From IMG/VR virus record IMGVR_UViG_3300025759_000769, positions 1 through 22,503 of that record: a DNA stretch of 22,503 bases, one strand, 5' to 3'. The translations under genes were made by a program, and so were the position numbers. This document shows, piece by piece, positions 3,908 to 20,081 of this stretch (its first letter is position 1; each line of letters starts with the position of its first letter). This stretch comes from a virus. The notes under the pieces are model-generated. The model saw only the letters and a list, made by a program, of their open reading frames with translations, did no database searches and had not been told where the DNA came from.

Positions 3908-4509
3908 TGCCTTTACTGTATCACAACAATAACTCTATCTCTAATGTAACTTCATTCCCACAAGTACCTAGTGGAAGTCCTGTATTATTATCTACGGCTA
4001 CTGCATCAGCTTCTAGTTCTATTAGCTTCACAAGCGGTATTGATACCACCTATGATGTTTATTATTTTGAGTTTATCAATATTCACCCAAGTGTTGATGA
4101 TGCAAGTCTTCAATTTAATTTAAGTACAGATAGTGGAAGTAATTATAATGTAACTAAAACCACAACTTTTTTTAGAACTTGGCATGGAGAAGATGATGCT
4201 TTAACTACATTGACATATGATGATGGTAGAGATTTGGCACAATCAACAGGTTATCAAATTATAGGTGCAGGAGTAGGAACAGATAATGACCAAAATTTAT
4301 CAGGTTCAATGACTTTATTTAATCCTAGTTCTAATACATTTGTAAAACACTTTTTAAGTAATATAAGTATTCTCACATCAAATGATTATAATAGAAATGA
4401 CTTTATTGCAGGATATGGAAATACAACAAGTGCAATAAATGCAATCCGTTTTCAAATGTCATCAGGCAACATAGATGCTGGAACAATTAAAATGTATGGG
4501 ATTAAATAA
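3907..4509 (+). CDS. Tandem fibre paralog 2 (beta-sandwich tail protein)
   Basis: A 200-residue paralog of both neighbours: LSTATASASSSISFTSGIDT, INIHPSVDDASLQF, STDSGSNYNVTKTTTFF, DLAQSTGYQ, LFNPSSNTFVKHF, GYGNTTSAINAI and a terminal GNIDAGTIKMYGIK. The first part and the end are close to paralog 1, while the middle loops (around LTTLTYDDG and ILTSNDYNRNDF) differ. This suggests a conserved scaffold with variable surface loops. Start and stop each overlap the adjacent gene by one base, so the three copies are translationally linked. Confidence 0.82.
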   Translation: MPLLYHNNNSISNVTSFPQVPSGSPVLLSTATASASSSISFTSGIDTTYDVYYFEFINIHPSVDDASLQFNLSTDSGSNYNVTKTTTFFRTWHGEDDALTTLTYDDGRDLAQSTGYQIIGAGVGTDNDQNLSGSMTLFNPSSNTFVKHFLSNISILTSNDYNRNDFIAGYGNTTSAINAIRFQMSSGNIDAGTIKMYGIK

Positions 4510-8821: not shown

Positions 8822-9346
8822 TTATAACGATTCCTTAATCGTATTATAATCTTCCCAAATTCTTTTTCCTTCTTGCCAAAACCTTTTCTTTTCATATTTC
8901 ATTTTAAGATGATGCACGATGGTGGAGTGATCTCTTTCTCCTATAAACATAGACACAGAGTTTAGGGAAATATTTAATACTTCTTTAATTAAATTAATAG
9001 CAATGGATCTGGCTTGCACCAAAGACATTAATCGTTTATTAGAAATAAAATCTTCTTTGCTAACTTGATATAAATCACAAACCTTATCTACAATATCATT
9101 GCCAATGGTAATTCCTGTTTCTGTTATTTTATTGGAATGATTTTTATTAATGTATTTAACTCTAACAATTTCTTTGCTGAATTGATTAGACTCCAATCTA
9201 TCTATTTGCTTTCTATGTTTTATTCCTAAGTTATATCCATTCCTGGCAGCAGTTAGATAAATAGTTTTCTCTCTTGCTGTAAGATTTTCGTAAGGGGTAA
9301 AGTTTAATACTTGTTGTAGTTCTTCGTTTTGTTTTTGGTTAAGCAT
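8822..9346 (-). CDS. Stand-alone DnaA domain IV-like DNA-binding protein
   Basis: A 174-residue protein. Residues about 82-152 are a DnaA C-terminal domain: helix IVDKVCDLYQVSKEDF, basic helix with R113 in VQARSIAINLIKEVL, then the signature GERDHSTI (136-143) followed by VHHL. These are the helix-turn-helix residues that read the DnaA box in bacterial DnaA. The AAA+ ATPase domain is absent; residues 1-80 are a helical region of unknown type. The protein would bind DnaA boxes and could recruit, mimic or block host DnaA. An AGAGGA ribosome-binding site precedes the start. It is the last gene of the leftward operon. Confidence 0.85.
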   Translation of the reverse strand: MLNQKQNEELQQVLNFTPYENLTAREKTIYLTAARNGYNLGIKHRKQIDRLESNQFSKEIVRVKYINKNHSNKITETGITIGNDIVDKVCDLYQVSKEDFISNKRLMSLVQARSIAINLIKEVLNISLNSVSMFIGERDHSTIVHHLKMKYEKKRFWQEGKRIWEDYNTIKESL

Positions 9347-10606: not shown

Positions 10607-11260
10607 TTATTTATGGCTTAGTTGTTCCATACGACTTTCATAAACTTTTTTTAGTTCTGAAAGTGCGTTTGGATTTTTATGTTGAAGATATTTAATTTGA
10701 TCTGCATACACAGTATCTTTAAGATGTTTCAATCTTGGAAGATGTATTGCTTGTGCAAATTCATTTTTTATATCTTCTATATTAACATCAATCTCTTCAA
10801 CTTGTTGCTGAGTTTGACTAATGTTATCACTAGCTTTCACTTGTGATTCTTTTTTAGATTTGAATGGTTTTGCTTCATACCCATCCTCGTAATCCATCCC
10901 TGTCTTTAAATTAAGTGCATTGAGGAACGCATATTTTTTAGCATAGCTCATTCCATTACCAGTGCCAAACTTATCTAAGTTTCCCATGGCACTACATCCA
11001 TTAATCTCAATATAGTCTGTTGGATTATCAATATCATGTATTTTCATAAAGCAAGTTACCATGACATAACTATCTGTAAGTTCATTGCTGTAAGTACACA
11101 CAGGATATAAGCCATTAGATAGCAATGCTTCCATAGCAACCTTCTGTACTTCATCATGTTGCAATGGGTTAAAGTGCATCCCTGGAACTCTTTTTCCTTT
11201 GACTACCCCTGTTGCTTCGCAAGCAGCTTTATGTAGTTTTTGGTATATGTTTTGTTTCAT
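10607..11260 (-). CDS. erf: ERF-family single-strand annealing protein
   Basis: A 217-residue recombinase. The ERF core is visible: a GMHFNPLQHDEVQKVAMEAL segment, a beta hairpin SYVMVTCFMKIHDID, then GNGMSYAKKYAFLNALNLKT (about 101-120) followed by the acidic DYEDGYE. The G-x-x-x-S-Y-A-x-K-Y-A signature is diagnostic for ERF proteins, which form rings on ssDNA and promote strand annealing, used by phages for genome circularisation and recombination. The C-terminal 80 residues are charged and probably mediate partner contacts. An AGGAG site is present. Confidence 0.9.
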   Translation of the reverse strand: MKQNIYQKLHKAACEATGVVKGKRVPGMHFNPLQHDEVQKVAMEALLSNGLYPVCTYSNELTDSYVMVTCFMKIHDIDNPTDYIEINGCSAMGNLDKFGTGNGMSYAKKYAFLNALNLKTGMDYEDGYEAKPFKSKKESQVKASDNISQTQQQVEEIDVNIEDIKNEFAQAIHLPRLKHLKDTVYADQIKYLQHKNPNALSELKKVYESRMEQLSHK

Positions 11261-13396: not shown

Positions 13397-13843
13397 ATGG
13401 CTAGAGATACATACGCATTTTCTAATGGAGTTTATAACGATTGGCATAGAAAGTATGAGGGTATCGCCATGATTGATATAGATAGCGTTGAGGTATGCAA
13501 GTATTGTTATGAGCCATTAGCTATTATTGAAACCTCTTACTATCGTGGTCATACAAACAAGGCAACTAGACTTACCAAAGAGATAGCGAAGCGATGTAAT
13601 GTTCCAGCTTATATGCTGTTCTATTATGAGCTTGAAACCCCTGCTAAACCACCTGAAGAACGAGCAAAACACCCTCAAATTTTACGATATGACCCTAGAT
13701 ATGACATAGACCTTAGGTTTGTTTGGAGGAACTTATTTGAGTACCATATTGCTTATAAGGAAACAGATCAGAATGAATGGTTAGAAGAATTAAATATGTT
13801 GCATAAAAGACACAGTAAGGAGTGTATAAAGTGGCAGAAATAA
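13397..13843 (+). CDS. Conserved phage protein, possible nuclease-fold (PD-(D/E)XK-like)
   Basis: A 148-residue protein starting MARDTYAFSNGVYNDWHRKY; an upstream in-frame ATG (13352) lies inside the previous gene and is rejected. The core (AMIDIDSVEVCKYCYEPLAI followed by IETSYY) has the D-x-D...E spacing of the nuclease beta-sheet found in several phage proteins that read 'DID-fvE..kpv.liE.K'; here the usual Lys is not present. A CxxC lies beside it, and CNVPAYMLFYYE completes the strand pattern. Fold is a weak inference; activity may be lost. Confidence 0.6.
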   Translation: MARDTYAFSNGVYNDWHRKYEGIAMIDIDSVEVCKYCYEPLAIIETSYYRGHTNKATRLTKEIAKRCNVPAYMLFYYELETPAKPPEERAKHPQILRYDPRYDIDLRFVWRNLFEYHIAYKETDQNEWLEELNMLHKRHSKECIKWQK

Positions 13844-14556
13844 GGCAGAACTACGATAGTTCAAGATCATTTTTATTATTAACCTATAAATTATATCATC
13901 ATTTGGATAAGGTTGGTGGTGTTAATAAAAGTAATTGCCTTAATGTATTCTTATCCTTGTTAAAATATGCTTGGAAGAAAAACAATTATCATTGTGGTTT
14001 AAGGCATTCTAAAATAGCTTTAGACACTGGCTTATCTAGGACCACTATTTATAGAACTTTAATGCTTTTAGAGAAGTTAAATATTCTTAAAACTATTAAA
14101 GGAAAGTCAGGAAAAAGCTATTCTATAAACACCGCATTTTTAAACACTGAAAGAGCTACTATGTTTAAATCTGAAACAAATAAGTTTAAATCTGAAACAA
14201 GGTATGTTTCAAATCCACCGACATTAGAAGAACAATATAAATCAATAAGCAATATCTCTAATTCTAAGATAGATGATATCATATTAAAAAATAGGTCAAG
14301 CAAGGATAGATTGGTTGATGAGCTGATTAAACACTGCACACTTGAAGAACTAAAAGAAGATAAAAAGAATGTCTATTATTGTGGTTTAGCTATTGCCGAT
14401 TATGATAAGAAGCGAGATCAGGAATTTGTACCGCCAGAAAAAATTATAAATGCCTTGAAAAATGTAGGTGGCAAAAAATCTAATGCTTTTTATAGAGCAA
14501 AGGTGGCTCATAATAAGAAATTCAATCTTGATTGGAAAGGCAACCCAAAAAAATGA
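13831..14556 (+). CDS. Winged-helix replication initiator-like protein
   Basis: A 241-residue protein. The GTG at 13831 is chosen because AAGGAG (13816-13821) is 9 nt upstream; the other in-frame GTG at 13822 abuts it. Residues about 30-100 form a winged helix: FLSLLKYAWKK, then HSKIALDTGLSRTTIYRTL and the wing ILKTIKGKSGKSY. This HTH_36-like domain is common in phage and plasmid replication initiators. A low-complexity linker with FKSET twice follows, encoded by the 17-bp iterons, then a C-terminal domain that could recruit a helicase or loader. Initiator by inference; a transcription factor is the alternative. Confidence 0.65.
   Translation: MAEIRQNYDSSRSFLLLTYKLYHHLDKVGGVNKSNCLNVFLSLLKYAWKKNNYHCGLRHSKIALDTGLSRTTIYRTLMLLEKLNILKTIKGKSGKSYSINTAFLNTERATMFKSETNKFKSETRYVSNPPTLEEQYKSISNISNSKIDDIILKNRSSKDRLVDELIKHCTLEELKEDKKNVYYCGLAIADYDKKRDQEFVPPEKIINALKNVGGKKSNAFYRAKVAHNKKFNLDWKGNPKK
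14163..14200 (+). repeat. Two perfect 17-bp iterons inside the initiator-like gene
   Basis: GTTTAAATCTGAAACAA occurs at 14163-14179 and 14184-14200, 21 bp apart (two helical turns). A degenerate copy TTTAAACACTGAAAG starts at 14139, and an inverted half-copy GTTTCAAAT lies at 14206-14214. Position between DNA-binding and C-terminal halves mirrors the lambda O iterons. Confidence 0.7.
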
Positions 14557-14993
14557 GAGGTGGATATAAAAACCAAAGGATATGTTGCGAAGCTATTACT
14601 AGGAAGAGTATTAGAGAGGGTAATCCAAGAAAATGTAGAGCCAAAGGTTATTTTACTCCAAGCGTTATGGGTTATCGCTGTATGTTTCATGGTGGTTTAT
14701 TTAGCCATGACTTTTACACAAGGAAGTATAAAGGATTGTTTAAAAACAATAAAATTAGTATAGAAGTAAAGGTAAAACGATTAAAAAATCTTAAAAATTT
14801 TAGAGATCTAAGTGATGAAAAAATTAAACAATACATTAGAGAAGAAGAAGCAAGATCTAATACTTTCGGATACAGAACAAAATACTTTACTAGAAAACTT
14901 AGTAGCTGGAAATCTCGTTATAGAAGAGGCAAGACGATTAAAGATCAAATTGAAAACTTTATACGACTTTGTGGAAGCAAACCCAAAGTTTAA
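14553..14993 (+). CDS. HGG zinc-binding-like phage protein
   Basis: A 146-residue protein starting MRGGYKNQRICCEAITRKSI; ATGA overlap with the initiator-like stop. Cysteines CC, then CRAKGYFTPSVMGYRCMFHG make a C...C...C..HG cluster like the 'HGG' zinc-binding proteins found near terminase genes of many phages. The remaining part is very basic (Lys/Arg-rich). Its last 179 nt overlap the terminase small subunit in another frame. That DNA-packaging neighbours and an HGG cluster occur together suggests a packaging or regulatory role. Confidence 0.65.
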   Translation: MRGGYKNQRICCEAITRKSIREGNPRKCRAKGYFTPSVMGYRCMFHGGLFSHDFYTRKYKGLFKNNKISIEVKVKRLKNLKNFRDLSDEKIKQYIREEEARSNTFGYRTKYFTRKLSSWKSRYRRGKTIKDQIENFIRLCGSKPKV

Positions 14994-15306
14994 AGAACAG
15001 TTTTTAAAAGCACAGGAAATAGGAATTAAAACCCTTGTTGAACTATTGTTAGAAGCATTTAACCAAGATCATCAAGAAGTAGATGCGAACAAGCTCCTCT
15101 TCCTTAGAGAGCGTAGTAATTACTTGCGTTGGCTAGCACCAAAAATATCTAGTTTCTTCCAAGAGAAGAAAAACCTAGATATTAAATCGGATGGAGTATT
15201 AAGGGTTATGTGGGAAGATACTACGACTGAACAAGATATTATTGATATTACTAATGAGATAGAATCTAAAAATTCTATCCCATTAGATAACAAGGGAACT
15301 GATTAA
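14815..15306 (+). CDS. terS: Terminase small subunit (Sf6-like / terS family)
   Basis: A 163-residue protein from the ATG at 14815 (a GTG three bases before is the alternative; SD weak). A helix-turn-helix at about 20-65 reads LLENLVAGNLVIEEARRLKI, then LKTLYDFVEANPKFKEQFLK, and a second part ends EVDANKLLFLRERSNYLRWL-APK. Both match the small terminase pattern of 'LxxIxxGxSxxEAc...TfyxWl...F...yxrAre' and 'VdrarlridarkwlasklaPk'. It binds the phage DNA packaging site and hands it to the large subunit. Its 5' third overlaps the HGG gene by 179 nt; its stop overlaps a convergent gene's stop. Confidence 0.8.
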   Translation: MKKLNNTLEKKKQDLILSDTEQNTLLENLVAGNLVIEEARRLKIKLKTLYDFVEANPKFKEQFLKAQEIGIKTLVELLLEAFNQDHQEVDANKLLFLRERSNYLRWLAPKISSFFQEKKNLDIKSDGVLRVMWEDTTTEQDIIDITNEIESKNSIPLDNKGTD

Positions 15307-17627: not shown

Positions 17628-17786
17628 TTATTGGTTAATTGTTTCAAAGTTAATTTTGATATAATTTTGGACAATCTTTTTAAATTGTTCCAAAGATATA
17701 TCTTTAAAAATGCTATCTTGAGCTTCGCATTGTTTTTTCAAATCAATATATCCTTGATCTGTTGTTGGTATTAAATCTATGTTCAT
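17628..17786 (-). CDS. Small helical protein, first gene of leftward cassette block
   Basis: A 52-residue protein starting MNIDLIPTTDQGYIDLKKQC. The ATG at 17786 is chosen because AAAGGAAACAAA precedes it; the in-frame ATG at 17816 has no ribosome-binding site. Helical remainder (SLEQFKKIVQNYIKINFETI). It is the first gene transcribed from the repeat-rich gap to its right. No family recognised. Confidence 0.6.
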   Translation of the reverse strand: MNIDLIPTTDQGYIDLKKQCEAQDSIFKDISLEQFKKIVQNYIKINFETINQ

Positions 17787-17957
17787 TTTGTTTCCTTTCT
17801 TTGTTTGTTTAACCATTATGGATATTATTATTAAAGTTTAAATTAAAAAGCAATAGTTAAAATAAAAAATATTTATTGACAAAGTGTCGCACATAAAAGG
17901 ACCAATTAAGGAAAGGTAAAAAGGATAAAAGAAAATATTAAAAGAAAAGTATAGAAC

Positions 17958-18050
17958 GATTGAGAGGTTAAGAGATTGAAAAGATTAAGAGGGTTAAATG
18001 TTGAAAGGGTTAAAATGTTGAAAAGATAAAAAGTTTAAAAGGTTAAAAGT
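17958..18050 (+). repeat. Phased 8-9-bp tandem array, C-free strand
   Basis: Units resembling G-[AG]-TT-[AG]-A begin at 17958, 17966, 17974, 17983, 17992, 18000, 18008, 18017, 18025, 18033 and 18041, spaced 8 or 9 bp. The plus strand contains no C from 17958 to 18051. Candidate iterons or an unwinding and structural tract. Confidence 0.6.
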
Positions 18051-18144
18051 TGCTATTCTTATACTCAGCTTCATTCAAAAACAAATAGCATTATATATCG
18101 GCATTACATTCAATCAGCTTACCAATAGGCAAACTGTTTAAGAT

Positions 18145-18260: not shown

Positions 18261-18329
18261 TTTTATTATATATATATACATGGGATTTTTCCACACCCAT
18301 ATCCAGTCACACTCACCCCCATATCCACA
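18261..18329 (+). promoter_or_regulatory. AT tract with imperfect DnaA-box-like sites
   Basis: TTTTATTATATATATATACA (18261-18280) followed by TTTTCCACA (18287-18295, one mismatch to TTATCCACA), ATATCCAGT (18299-18307, weaker) and ATATCCACA (18321-18329, one mismatch), all in the same orientation. AT-rich unwinding tract beside same-strand boxes is the arrangement of bacterial origins. Confidence 0.4.
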
Positions 18330-18390
18330 AAACAACCCACCCCCTTTTCTTTGCTAGACCTCCCTTTTAAAATAATTTACTACAAGATAT

Positions 18391-18576
18391 ATGGAATACG
18401 ATAGCGACAATATACAATCTGTAGTATTTATAGAACCTGAGACTAATAATGTTATTATTAAAATCACAGGTTTTCCTAATAAGGATATAGCAAATCTATA
18501 TGTTACTTGGATTATGGCAGAGCTATCCTTTGATTTTACACCAATGAATGGAACGATAGATACGAAGATACACTAA
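18391..18576 (+). CDS. Small acidic protein upstream of terminase large subunit
   Basis: A 61-residue protein (MEYDSDNIQSVVFIEPETNN, then VIIKITGFPNKDIANLYVTW, then IMAELSFDFTPMNG). Its stop overlaps the terL start by one base (TAATG), coupling them. The beta-beta-helix pattern with a terminal Asp/Phe stretch may represent a small packaging accessory protein; no family recognised. Only a weak ribosome-binding site is visible, so the start is likely but not certain. Confidence 0.6.
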   Translation: MEYDSDNIQSVVFIEPETNNVIIKITGFPNKDIANLYVTWIMAELSFDFTPMNGTIDTKIH

Positions 18577-19847
18577 TGGATGCTAAGATACCCTATACTC
18601 CTAGGAAACATCAAATATACATACACCATAATATTGCTAACCACAGATGGTCTGTATTAGTTTGCCATAGAAGATTTGGCAAAACAGTCTGTATGATTAA
18701 TCAATTAATCAAATCAGCTTTACTTTCTGGATTGAAGAACCCTAGGTATGCCTATATTGCACCCACCTTCAAACAAGCAAAGTCTATTGCCTGGGATTAT
18801 ATGAAACAATTTACCAACCACATACCAGGAGTAAAGTTTAACGAAACAGAACTAAGGGTAGATTTTCCTAATGGTGCAAGAATAACCCTACTAGGATCAG
18901 AGAATTGCGATGGTTTACGAGGTATCTACTTAGATGGTTGTGTCATTGATGAGTATGCCAATGTAACAGAACGATTGTTTCCAGAGATTATACGACCTGC
19001 TTTATCAGATAGAAAAGGATATTGCGTATTTATTGGTACACCACAAGGAATGAATAATAACTTTTATGAACTATACCAACACGCACAAGGAGCAGAAGAT
19101 TGGTTTCATTACAAAGCAAAAGCATCAGATACCAAAATAGTAGATCCAGATGAATTAGAAAAAGCAAAAGAAGTCATGGGAGAGAATAAATATAAGCAAG
19201 AGTTTGAATGTGATTGGATTGCCAATATTGAAGGTGCTATTTATGGAGAGGTTCTAACAGAGATGGAAGATAAAAGGCAGCTACACAGAGTACCTTATGA
19301 TCCTGCTTTGCCTGTCTCTACTGCTTGGGATTTAGGAGTATCTGACCATACAGCTATTATCTTCTTTCAGCAATTAGGAAGTGCTATTAATATTATTGAT
19401 TACTATGAGGAACGAGGTCAAGGATTACCGCACTACATAGAGGTAGTGAATAGCAAGGATTATATTTATAAGGATCATTATGCTCCACACGATATTGAAG
19501 TCATGGAGTTCAGCAATGGCAAAACCAGAAGGGAAGTAGCTTATCAATTAGGTGTAAGGTTTAAGGTAGTTCCTAAACTTCCATTAGAAGATGGCATCCA
19601 TGCTACCTTGATGACCCTGCCTAGATGCTGGATAGATACAGATCATTGCAAAAAACTAATAGATGCGTTAAGACATTACCACAGAAAATATATAGACAAG
19701 AACAGGATGTTCAGATCTAAACCTGTACATGATTGGAGTTCACACGCTTGTGATGCCATGAGATATTTATCTGTAGGAATTACAGAATTAAATACTAGAC
19801 AAAATGCTCCACAAAATGTAGCAGATAATGAATATAGTATTTTATAA
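18576..19847 (+). CDS. terL: Terminase large subunit
   Basis: A 423-residue DNA-packaging motor. ATPase: Walker A CHRRFGKT (30-37), Walker B with IDE (124-126) and motif III IGTPQG (153-158), plus APTFKQAK (62-69). Nuclease domain (RNase H-like): Asp252 in TAWDLGVSDHT, Asp306 in APHDIEV and Asp393 in SSHACDAMRYL. It cuts concatemeric DNA and translocates it into procapsids through the portal encoded downstream. All key residues are present, so it appears functional. The start is coupled to the preceding small gene by TAATG; the next gene follows after a 12-nt leader. Confidence 0.95.
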   Translation: MDAKIPYTPRKHQIYIHHNIANHRWSVLVCHRRFGKTVCMINQLIKSALLSGLKNPRYAYIAPTFKQAKSIAWDYMKQFTNHIPGVKFNETELRVDFPNGARITLLGSENCDGLRGIYLDGCVIDEYANVTERLFPEIIRPALSDRKGYCVFIGTPQGMNNNFYELYQHAQGAEDWFHYKAKASDTKIVDPDELEKAKEVMGENKYKQEFECDWIANIEGAIYGEVLTEMEDKRQLHRVPYDPALPVSTAWDLGVSDHTAIIFFQQLGSAINIIDYYEERGQGLPHYIEVVNSKDYIYKDHYAPHDIEVMEFSNGKTRREVAYQLGVRFKVVPKLPLEDGIHATLMTLPRCWIDTDHCKKLIDALRHYHRKYIDKNRMFRSKPVHDWSSHACDAMRYLSVGITELNTRQNAPQNVADNEYSIL

Positions 19848-19859
19848 AAGGAATTTATT

Positions 19860-20081
19860 ATGGGAAGTTTATTTAGTCCAAAGATGCCAGCACTACCCCC
19901 AGTTCAACCTTTGCCTGAACCGCCGAAGGCAGAACTAAGTGCAGAAGAGAAACAAAGGATAGCGGATGAACAAGCTGCTATGGAGCGTAGAAGAAAAGGT
20001 CGTAAGTCTACTATTCTAACTGGACCTTTAGGTATTGAAACAGAAGCAACCACAGAAAAGAAAACTTTATTAGGAGGATAA
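19860..20081 (+). CDS. LLGG-tailed small protein 1 (between terL and portal)
   Basis: A 73-residue protein with a Pro-rich N-terminus (PKMPALPPVQPLPEPPKAEL), a charged helix, then the distinctive tail RKGRKSTILTGPLGIETEAT and a C-terminal KKTLLGG. A sister protein with the same R-K-G-R-x-[SA]-T-I-L-T...LLGG tail is encoded two genes on. Such proteins occur between terminase and portal in podoviruses; role unknown, perhaps head-assembly. The LLGG codons (TTATTAGGAGGA) supply the ribosome-binding site for the next ORF. Confidence 0.75.
   Translation: MGSLFSPKMPALPPVQPLPEPPKAELSAEEKQRIADEQAAMERRRKGRKSTILTGPLGIETEATTEKKTLLGG

Follow-up and report, generated by a model that had tools for sequence, protein, structure and literature searches.

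The window, by which we mean the whole 22,503-nt stretch of viral DNA that was analysed, is a fragment of a pelagiphage of the HTVC010P type. The 23 phage records matched by its late-gene end, at about 74-78% DNA identity, are all from Pelagibacter phages, with HTVC034P and HTVC010P first among them. Its TerL and portal proteins are recognised by PHROGs. Phages of this type are very abundant in the ocean. No packaging signal, origin or small terminase is annotated in the HTVC010P-type records that were examined, and none was found in a literature search.

The features that concern this report are listed in Table 1. The C-free array is flanked on the left by a group of small leftward genes, whose nearest start codon is at minus-strand position 17816, and on the right by a rightward 61-aa ORF and terL. 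The gene for the small terminase subunit (TerS) is located upstream, about 2.7 kb away, so that both the array and the leftward gene group fall between TerS and terL. A preliminary description of this DNA had placed the array next to terL, but the distance to that gene is in fact about 525 nt, and the 61-aa ORF together with about 340 nt of noncoding sequence intervenes. Elsewhere in the window, the minus strand at 10607-11260 encodes an Erf-like single-strand annealing protein (PHROG 155, E 9e-16).

Table 1. Positions in the window of the C-free tract, its neighbouring sequence elements and the terminase genes.
Feature	Position	Strand
TerS, gene for an Sf6-like small terminase subunit, candidate reader of the tract	14812..15306	+
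Upstream extension of the tract, purine-rich, C-free, split from the array by the C at 17957	17904..17956	+
Array of G[AG]TT[AG]A-type units, C-free, period about 8.3 bp	17958..18052	+
Conserved core GTTGCTATTCTTATA (family form GTTGCTATTCTAATA), endpoint of the C-free tract	18049..18063	+
Palindrome TTCCGATAA-TCATAAT-TTATCGGAA	18145..18169	
Element 6, very conserved block TTATATATATATACATGGGA	18266..18285	+
DnaA-box-like sequence TTTTCCACA	18287..18295	+
Second sequence resembling a DnaA box, ATATCCACA, with one mismatch relative to TTATCCACA	18321..18329	+
terL, gene for the large terminase subunit	18576..19847	+

On the plus strand, 17958-18052 contains no C over 95 nt. No other C-free run in the window is as long, and the length agrees with the preliminary description of a strand lacking C over about 94 bases. 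The runners-up are 55 nt (19823-19877) and 53 nt (17904-17956), the latter directly upstream of the array, and the 149 nt at 17904-18052 include a single C, at 17957. The C-free block that had been delimited earlier stands, but the C-poor tract to which it belongs extends upstream to about 17904. Eleven units in register had been described; seven of these are strict copies of G[AG]TT[AG]A (starting at 17958, 17966, 17974, 17983, 17992, 18008 and 18041), and the remaining four (near 17999, 18016, 18025 and 18032) are only degenerate. Autocorrelation of 17958-18050 gives z values of 5.9 at lag 8, 5.3-5.6 at lags 16-17 and 6.0 at lag 25, which confirms the proposed mean spacing of about 8.3 bp. 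It had been allowed at the outset that shuffled sequence might give autocorrelation as strong, yet the maximum was matched by none of 2000 dinucleotide shuffles. Tandem Repeats Finder gives, independently, arrays of period 16 and period 8 at 17992-18052, whereas a chain-score scan of the whole window was uninformative because its scores grow without bound. The array is not covered by any ORF of at least 60 aa, no RNA structure is predicted for the tract on either strand, and nothing in the window matches Rfam at the gathering score.

The site was examined in 80 TerL relatives from viral contigs, to which loci from pattern searches and from further TerL and TerS searches were added. In most relatives the C-poor tract stops exactly at the core GTTGCTATTCTAATA, about 500 nt upstream of terL. 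Among 57 non-redundant loci obtained with a tight definition of the core, the C-free run has a median length of 35 nt, compared with 4 nt in the background, and it is at least 40 nt long in 44% of the loci, compared with 0.3% in the background. An earlier set of 89 loci had a median run of 31 nt, with 33% of the loci reaching 40 nt. In the 48 nt that precede the core, C makes up 3-5%, and in the core itself 22%, while G falls from 22% to 2%; the upstream composition is independent evidence, whereas the composition of the core is not because the loci were selected by their core. In the tracts of the relatives, GATTAA and GTTGAA occur about four times as often as a first-order background predicts. 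HTVC204P, a cultured phage, possesses at the same site a 90-nt C-free array that exceeds every other C-free run on either strand of its genome. Not every relative has a long tract: HTVC010P has a short one only, the C-free run of many relatives is just 20-35 nt, and a minority of loci carry C near the core. The tract of some relatives coincides with the 3' end of a small plus-strand gene, whose product ends in KIKRVE, or comes after a terminator-like sequence. The gene at L017:1299-1490 (+) is one of a small family that encode proteins of 61-63 aa (..KIKRVE) and terminate directly at the core.

The length of the repeated unit is specific to the lineage. The best autocorrelation lag is 6, 9, 10 or 11 in other lineages as well as 8, some arrays are hardly periodic, and the arrays that occupy the same site in HTVC024P (L218) and HTVC204P (L384) have units of about 6 bp and about 8 bp, respectively. 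The weight that had been given to the 8.3-bp period itself is therefore not borne out, and phasing at 8.3 bp is ruled out as a structural constraint because the relatives show other periods. An iteron array, with conserved repeats at a conserved spacing, was also considered and rejected, as the lag ranges from 6 to 11 across lineages and the unit is degenerate.

Avoidance of C is apparent from a comparison of the window with its two nearest relatives, L004 (nucleotide identity of terL 0.977) and L197. The arrays differ from that of the window by 14 and 9 substitutions, respectively, and C is involved in none of these 23, whereas the stretch from the core to the ORF differs by 41 and 44 substitutions, of which 19 and 22 (41 of 85) involve C. 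Two further relatives, L006 and L007, each have two substitutions involving C (among 23 and 19, respectively) plus an inserted C-containing segment upstream. The substitution pattern is read as selection against C near the core, with copying by tandem duplication as a partial alternative and with uncertainty in how the arrays align. Given the lack of C among the 23 array substitutions and the varying period, it is composition and position that are conserved and not helical phasing; the constant features are the absence of C, hexamers of the GATTAA/GTTGAA type and the placement of the tract against the core. For the HTVC010P-type pelagiphages, a conserved cis element with strand asymmetry in the neighbourhood of terL is well supported.

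A tract of this kind could also be a neutral tandem array that was generated by slippage at the border of exchangeable modules and inherited its C-free state from the seed unit. Slippage would account for units of 6 to 11 bp across lineages, for arrays of unequal length in close relatives, and for the presence of other modules (terminators, the small plus-strand gene) at the site in some relatives. It does not explain readily, however, why the tract ends at the core in unrelated arrays, why GATTAA/GTTGAA-type hexamers recur despite different unit lengths, or why C is missing from the substitutions within the array, and we regard neutral drift as very improbable.

There is a small chance that the tract acts on transcription. 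It could form the upstream portion of a rightward promoter with its -10 element (CTATTCTAAT) in the core, or a leftward transcript could contain it as a Rho-utilisation stretch that is rich in C and lacks G. The location of the site between divergent gene groups accords with both versions, but the five promoter-like sites seen in the region compare with 6.6 expected from shuffles, none of the five is on the core, and the TG of an extended -10 element is not conserved there. Rut sites are C-rich, G-poor and unstructured stretches of about 70-80 nt of transcript. The minus-strand RNA of the window's tract resembles them in being G-free, YC-rich and predicted to be unstructured, since its 95 nt would include 26 C and 17 YC dinucleotides but not a single G, and it folds to nothing. 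The resemblance does not extend to many of the relatives, in which the C-free run of 20-35 nt is short for a Rho site, and a leftward transcript across the tract is not known.

Additional conserved elements are found to the right of the core. Palindromes of the CCGATAAT type are recurrent in relatives at the place of the window's palindrome, and TTATNCACA is found near the place of the first DnaA-box-like sequence in many relatives. The palindrome TTAGAATNATTCTAA was scanned for in five genomes and is located about 100-300 nt from the site in HTVC204P and HTVC035P; in HTVC010P there is a perfect copy about 0.5 kb off, across the record ends, in Skadi-7 a two-mismatch copy is far from the site, and in the window the scan found none at the site. 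The region at 18266-18330, in which the extreme conservation of element 6 is followed by DnaA-box-like sequences, is a candidate origin or promoter.

That the tract itself is the initiator-binding or unwinding part of a phage replication origin seems unlikely, though several observations favour the idea. About 215-280 bp to the right of the tract there are a (TA)n block and DnaA-box-like sequences. In 30 of 82 loci, TTWTNCACA follows the (TA)n block or element 6 at a distance of at most 150 bp, the motif being present in 1.5% of random windows and in 5% under dinucleotide models. The ORF at 8822-9346 on the minus strand encodes a 174-aa protein with DnaA domain IV (Bac_DnaA_C, E 6e-17) that has homologues across cultured relatives, and the ORF at 13822-14556 encodes a winged-helix protein with initiator-like matches. 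In three of four genomes the detrended GC skew reaches its minimum close to the region, but this minimum is confounded because skew in these genomes tracks gene direction, and in Skadi-7 the minimum is at 4256, away from the site, with element 6 at 17682. In DnaA-type origins an AT-rich block has DnaA boxes close by. The region is similar in that its (TA)n block is near DnaA-box-like sequences and the phage has a DnaA domain IV protein, whereas DnaA boxes are absent from the tract, the nearest being more than 200 bp away; the unit length of the tract is also not conserved, which differs from the spacing expected of iterons. Boxes beside an AT-rich region are thus a property of the right part of the region and not of the array. 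Because TTWTNCACA is present in 30 of the 82 loci and these phages possess a protein with DnaA domain IV, the right part may be a replication origin, as judged from sequence.

The product of the ORF at 14812-15306 is identified here as an Sf6-like TerS. This ORF alone gives a weak match to Sf6_terminase, and all 30 of the homologues match both Pfam Sf6_terminase and PHROG 1482 (terminase small subunit). In the predicted model of the protein, two long helices accompany an N-terminal region that resembles a helix-turn-helix, and the six top structural matches of this model are chains of Sf6 TerS (best E 0.013). Beyond roughly residues 13-80 the model is of low confidence (mean pLDDT 65), and none of the fold matches passes E 0.001, so the assignment leans on rank, Foldseek probability and the independent HMM matches. 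Annotations of this protein's relatives go no further than "hypothetical" or "putative DNA-binding protein". TerS and TerL are encoded on one strand in all 94 loci that hold both genes, TerS usually being about 2.8 kb upstream, and the site formed by the tract and the core sits between them.

The best single reading of the tract, followed in order by part of an origin, a transcription element and neutral drift, is that it serves as the loading zone of a pac-like packaging-start site in HTVC010P-type pelagiphages, a tentative proposal that we would stop short of calling probable. With the two readings taken together, a part in starting either packaging or replication of the genome is probable. 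The tract would be the left half of a family-wide cis-acting site that is closed by the core upstream of terL. We infer that a ring of the Sf6-like TerS would load on the C-free tract, that TerL would introduce the initial cut at the core or close to it, and that packaging would then proceed rightward through terL. Among the supporting facts are that the tract abuts the core upstream of terL and that TerS is upstream in the same orientation in every one of the 94 loci. Strand asymmetry, to our knowledge, is not a requirement of pac sites, which counts against the packaging reading.

The ends of viral contigs are consistent with a cut at the core. In a hand-counted sample of 48 contigs from the TerL searches whose upstream end is at most 1 kb from terL, four start within 3 nt of one another inside the core, on the side of terL, and two more start a few nucleotides upstream. 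The scan P value is 0.011 for any 3-bp window holding four starts under uniform ends, for a window that was chosen post hoc. On the upstream side, only one contig end is near the core. Two contigs, L053 and L352, start at the same base (GGTATACCCCAG) by a C-homopolymer just upstream of element 6, which shows that shared contig starts can be technical. As starts also coincide at the homopolymer, and assemblers break at borders between variable and conserved sequence, placement of the cut at the core from contig ends is, after two attempts, only suggestive.

The preliminary description had raised the possibility of a pac or cos recognition array. The link to packaging survives as the leading guess, while a fixed cos end is unsupported. 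Cos sites of the lambda cosB type have a conserved core with adjoining repeats that bind the small terminase. The window's site is similar in having a conserved core beside repeats of protein-binding size upstream of terL, but the isolate genomes of pelagiphages and the near-full-length contigs run through or past the core. That these sequences are uncut there argues against a fixed cos end at the core, although annealed or ligated ends could mask fixed ends. The continuity of the isolate genomes through the core fits circularly permuted headful DNA better than fixed cos ends.

In the headful phages SPP1, SF6, P22 and Sf6, pac resembles the window's site in that direct repeats of modest conservation occur near the terminase genes, and the window shares with pac systems an Sf6-like TerS encoded in the same genome as the site. 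The direct repeats of the SPP1 pac are only moderately conserved, and the TerS domain of the SPP1 relative SF6 binds DNA weakly and with no sequence preference; the authors favour selection of bent DNA (PMC4737164). Small terminases bind pac weakly in vitro without clear specificity, and recognition of pac by TerS is treated as unsettled (reviewed in PMC9611059). In SPP1 and P22, pac is located at or within the TerS gene (PMC4737164, PMC9611059), whereas the window's site is far from TerS and upstream of terL. The exclusion of one base from one strand was also not found described for SPP1, SF6, P22 or Sf6.

A more general proposition, doubtful but not far-fetched, is that the site exemplifies a cis-acting signal that is defined mainly by the exclusion of one base from one strand. 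Such a signal would be C-free up to a fixed core, would be conserved across the family while sequence, unit length and repeat number vary, and would be read by a strand-sensitive protein such as the terminase or a replication protein. A site conserved in composition would suit the picture of weak or non-specific binding by TerS, although strand asymmetry is no part of that picture. The small terminase of HTVC010P-type phages is newly named here, and the tract, the core and element 6 make up a compact conserved region in which packaging, and perhaps replication, can be tested. If true, a signal conserved in composition would bear on how small terminases that bind weakly find pac.
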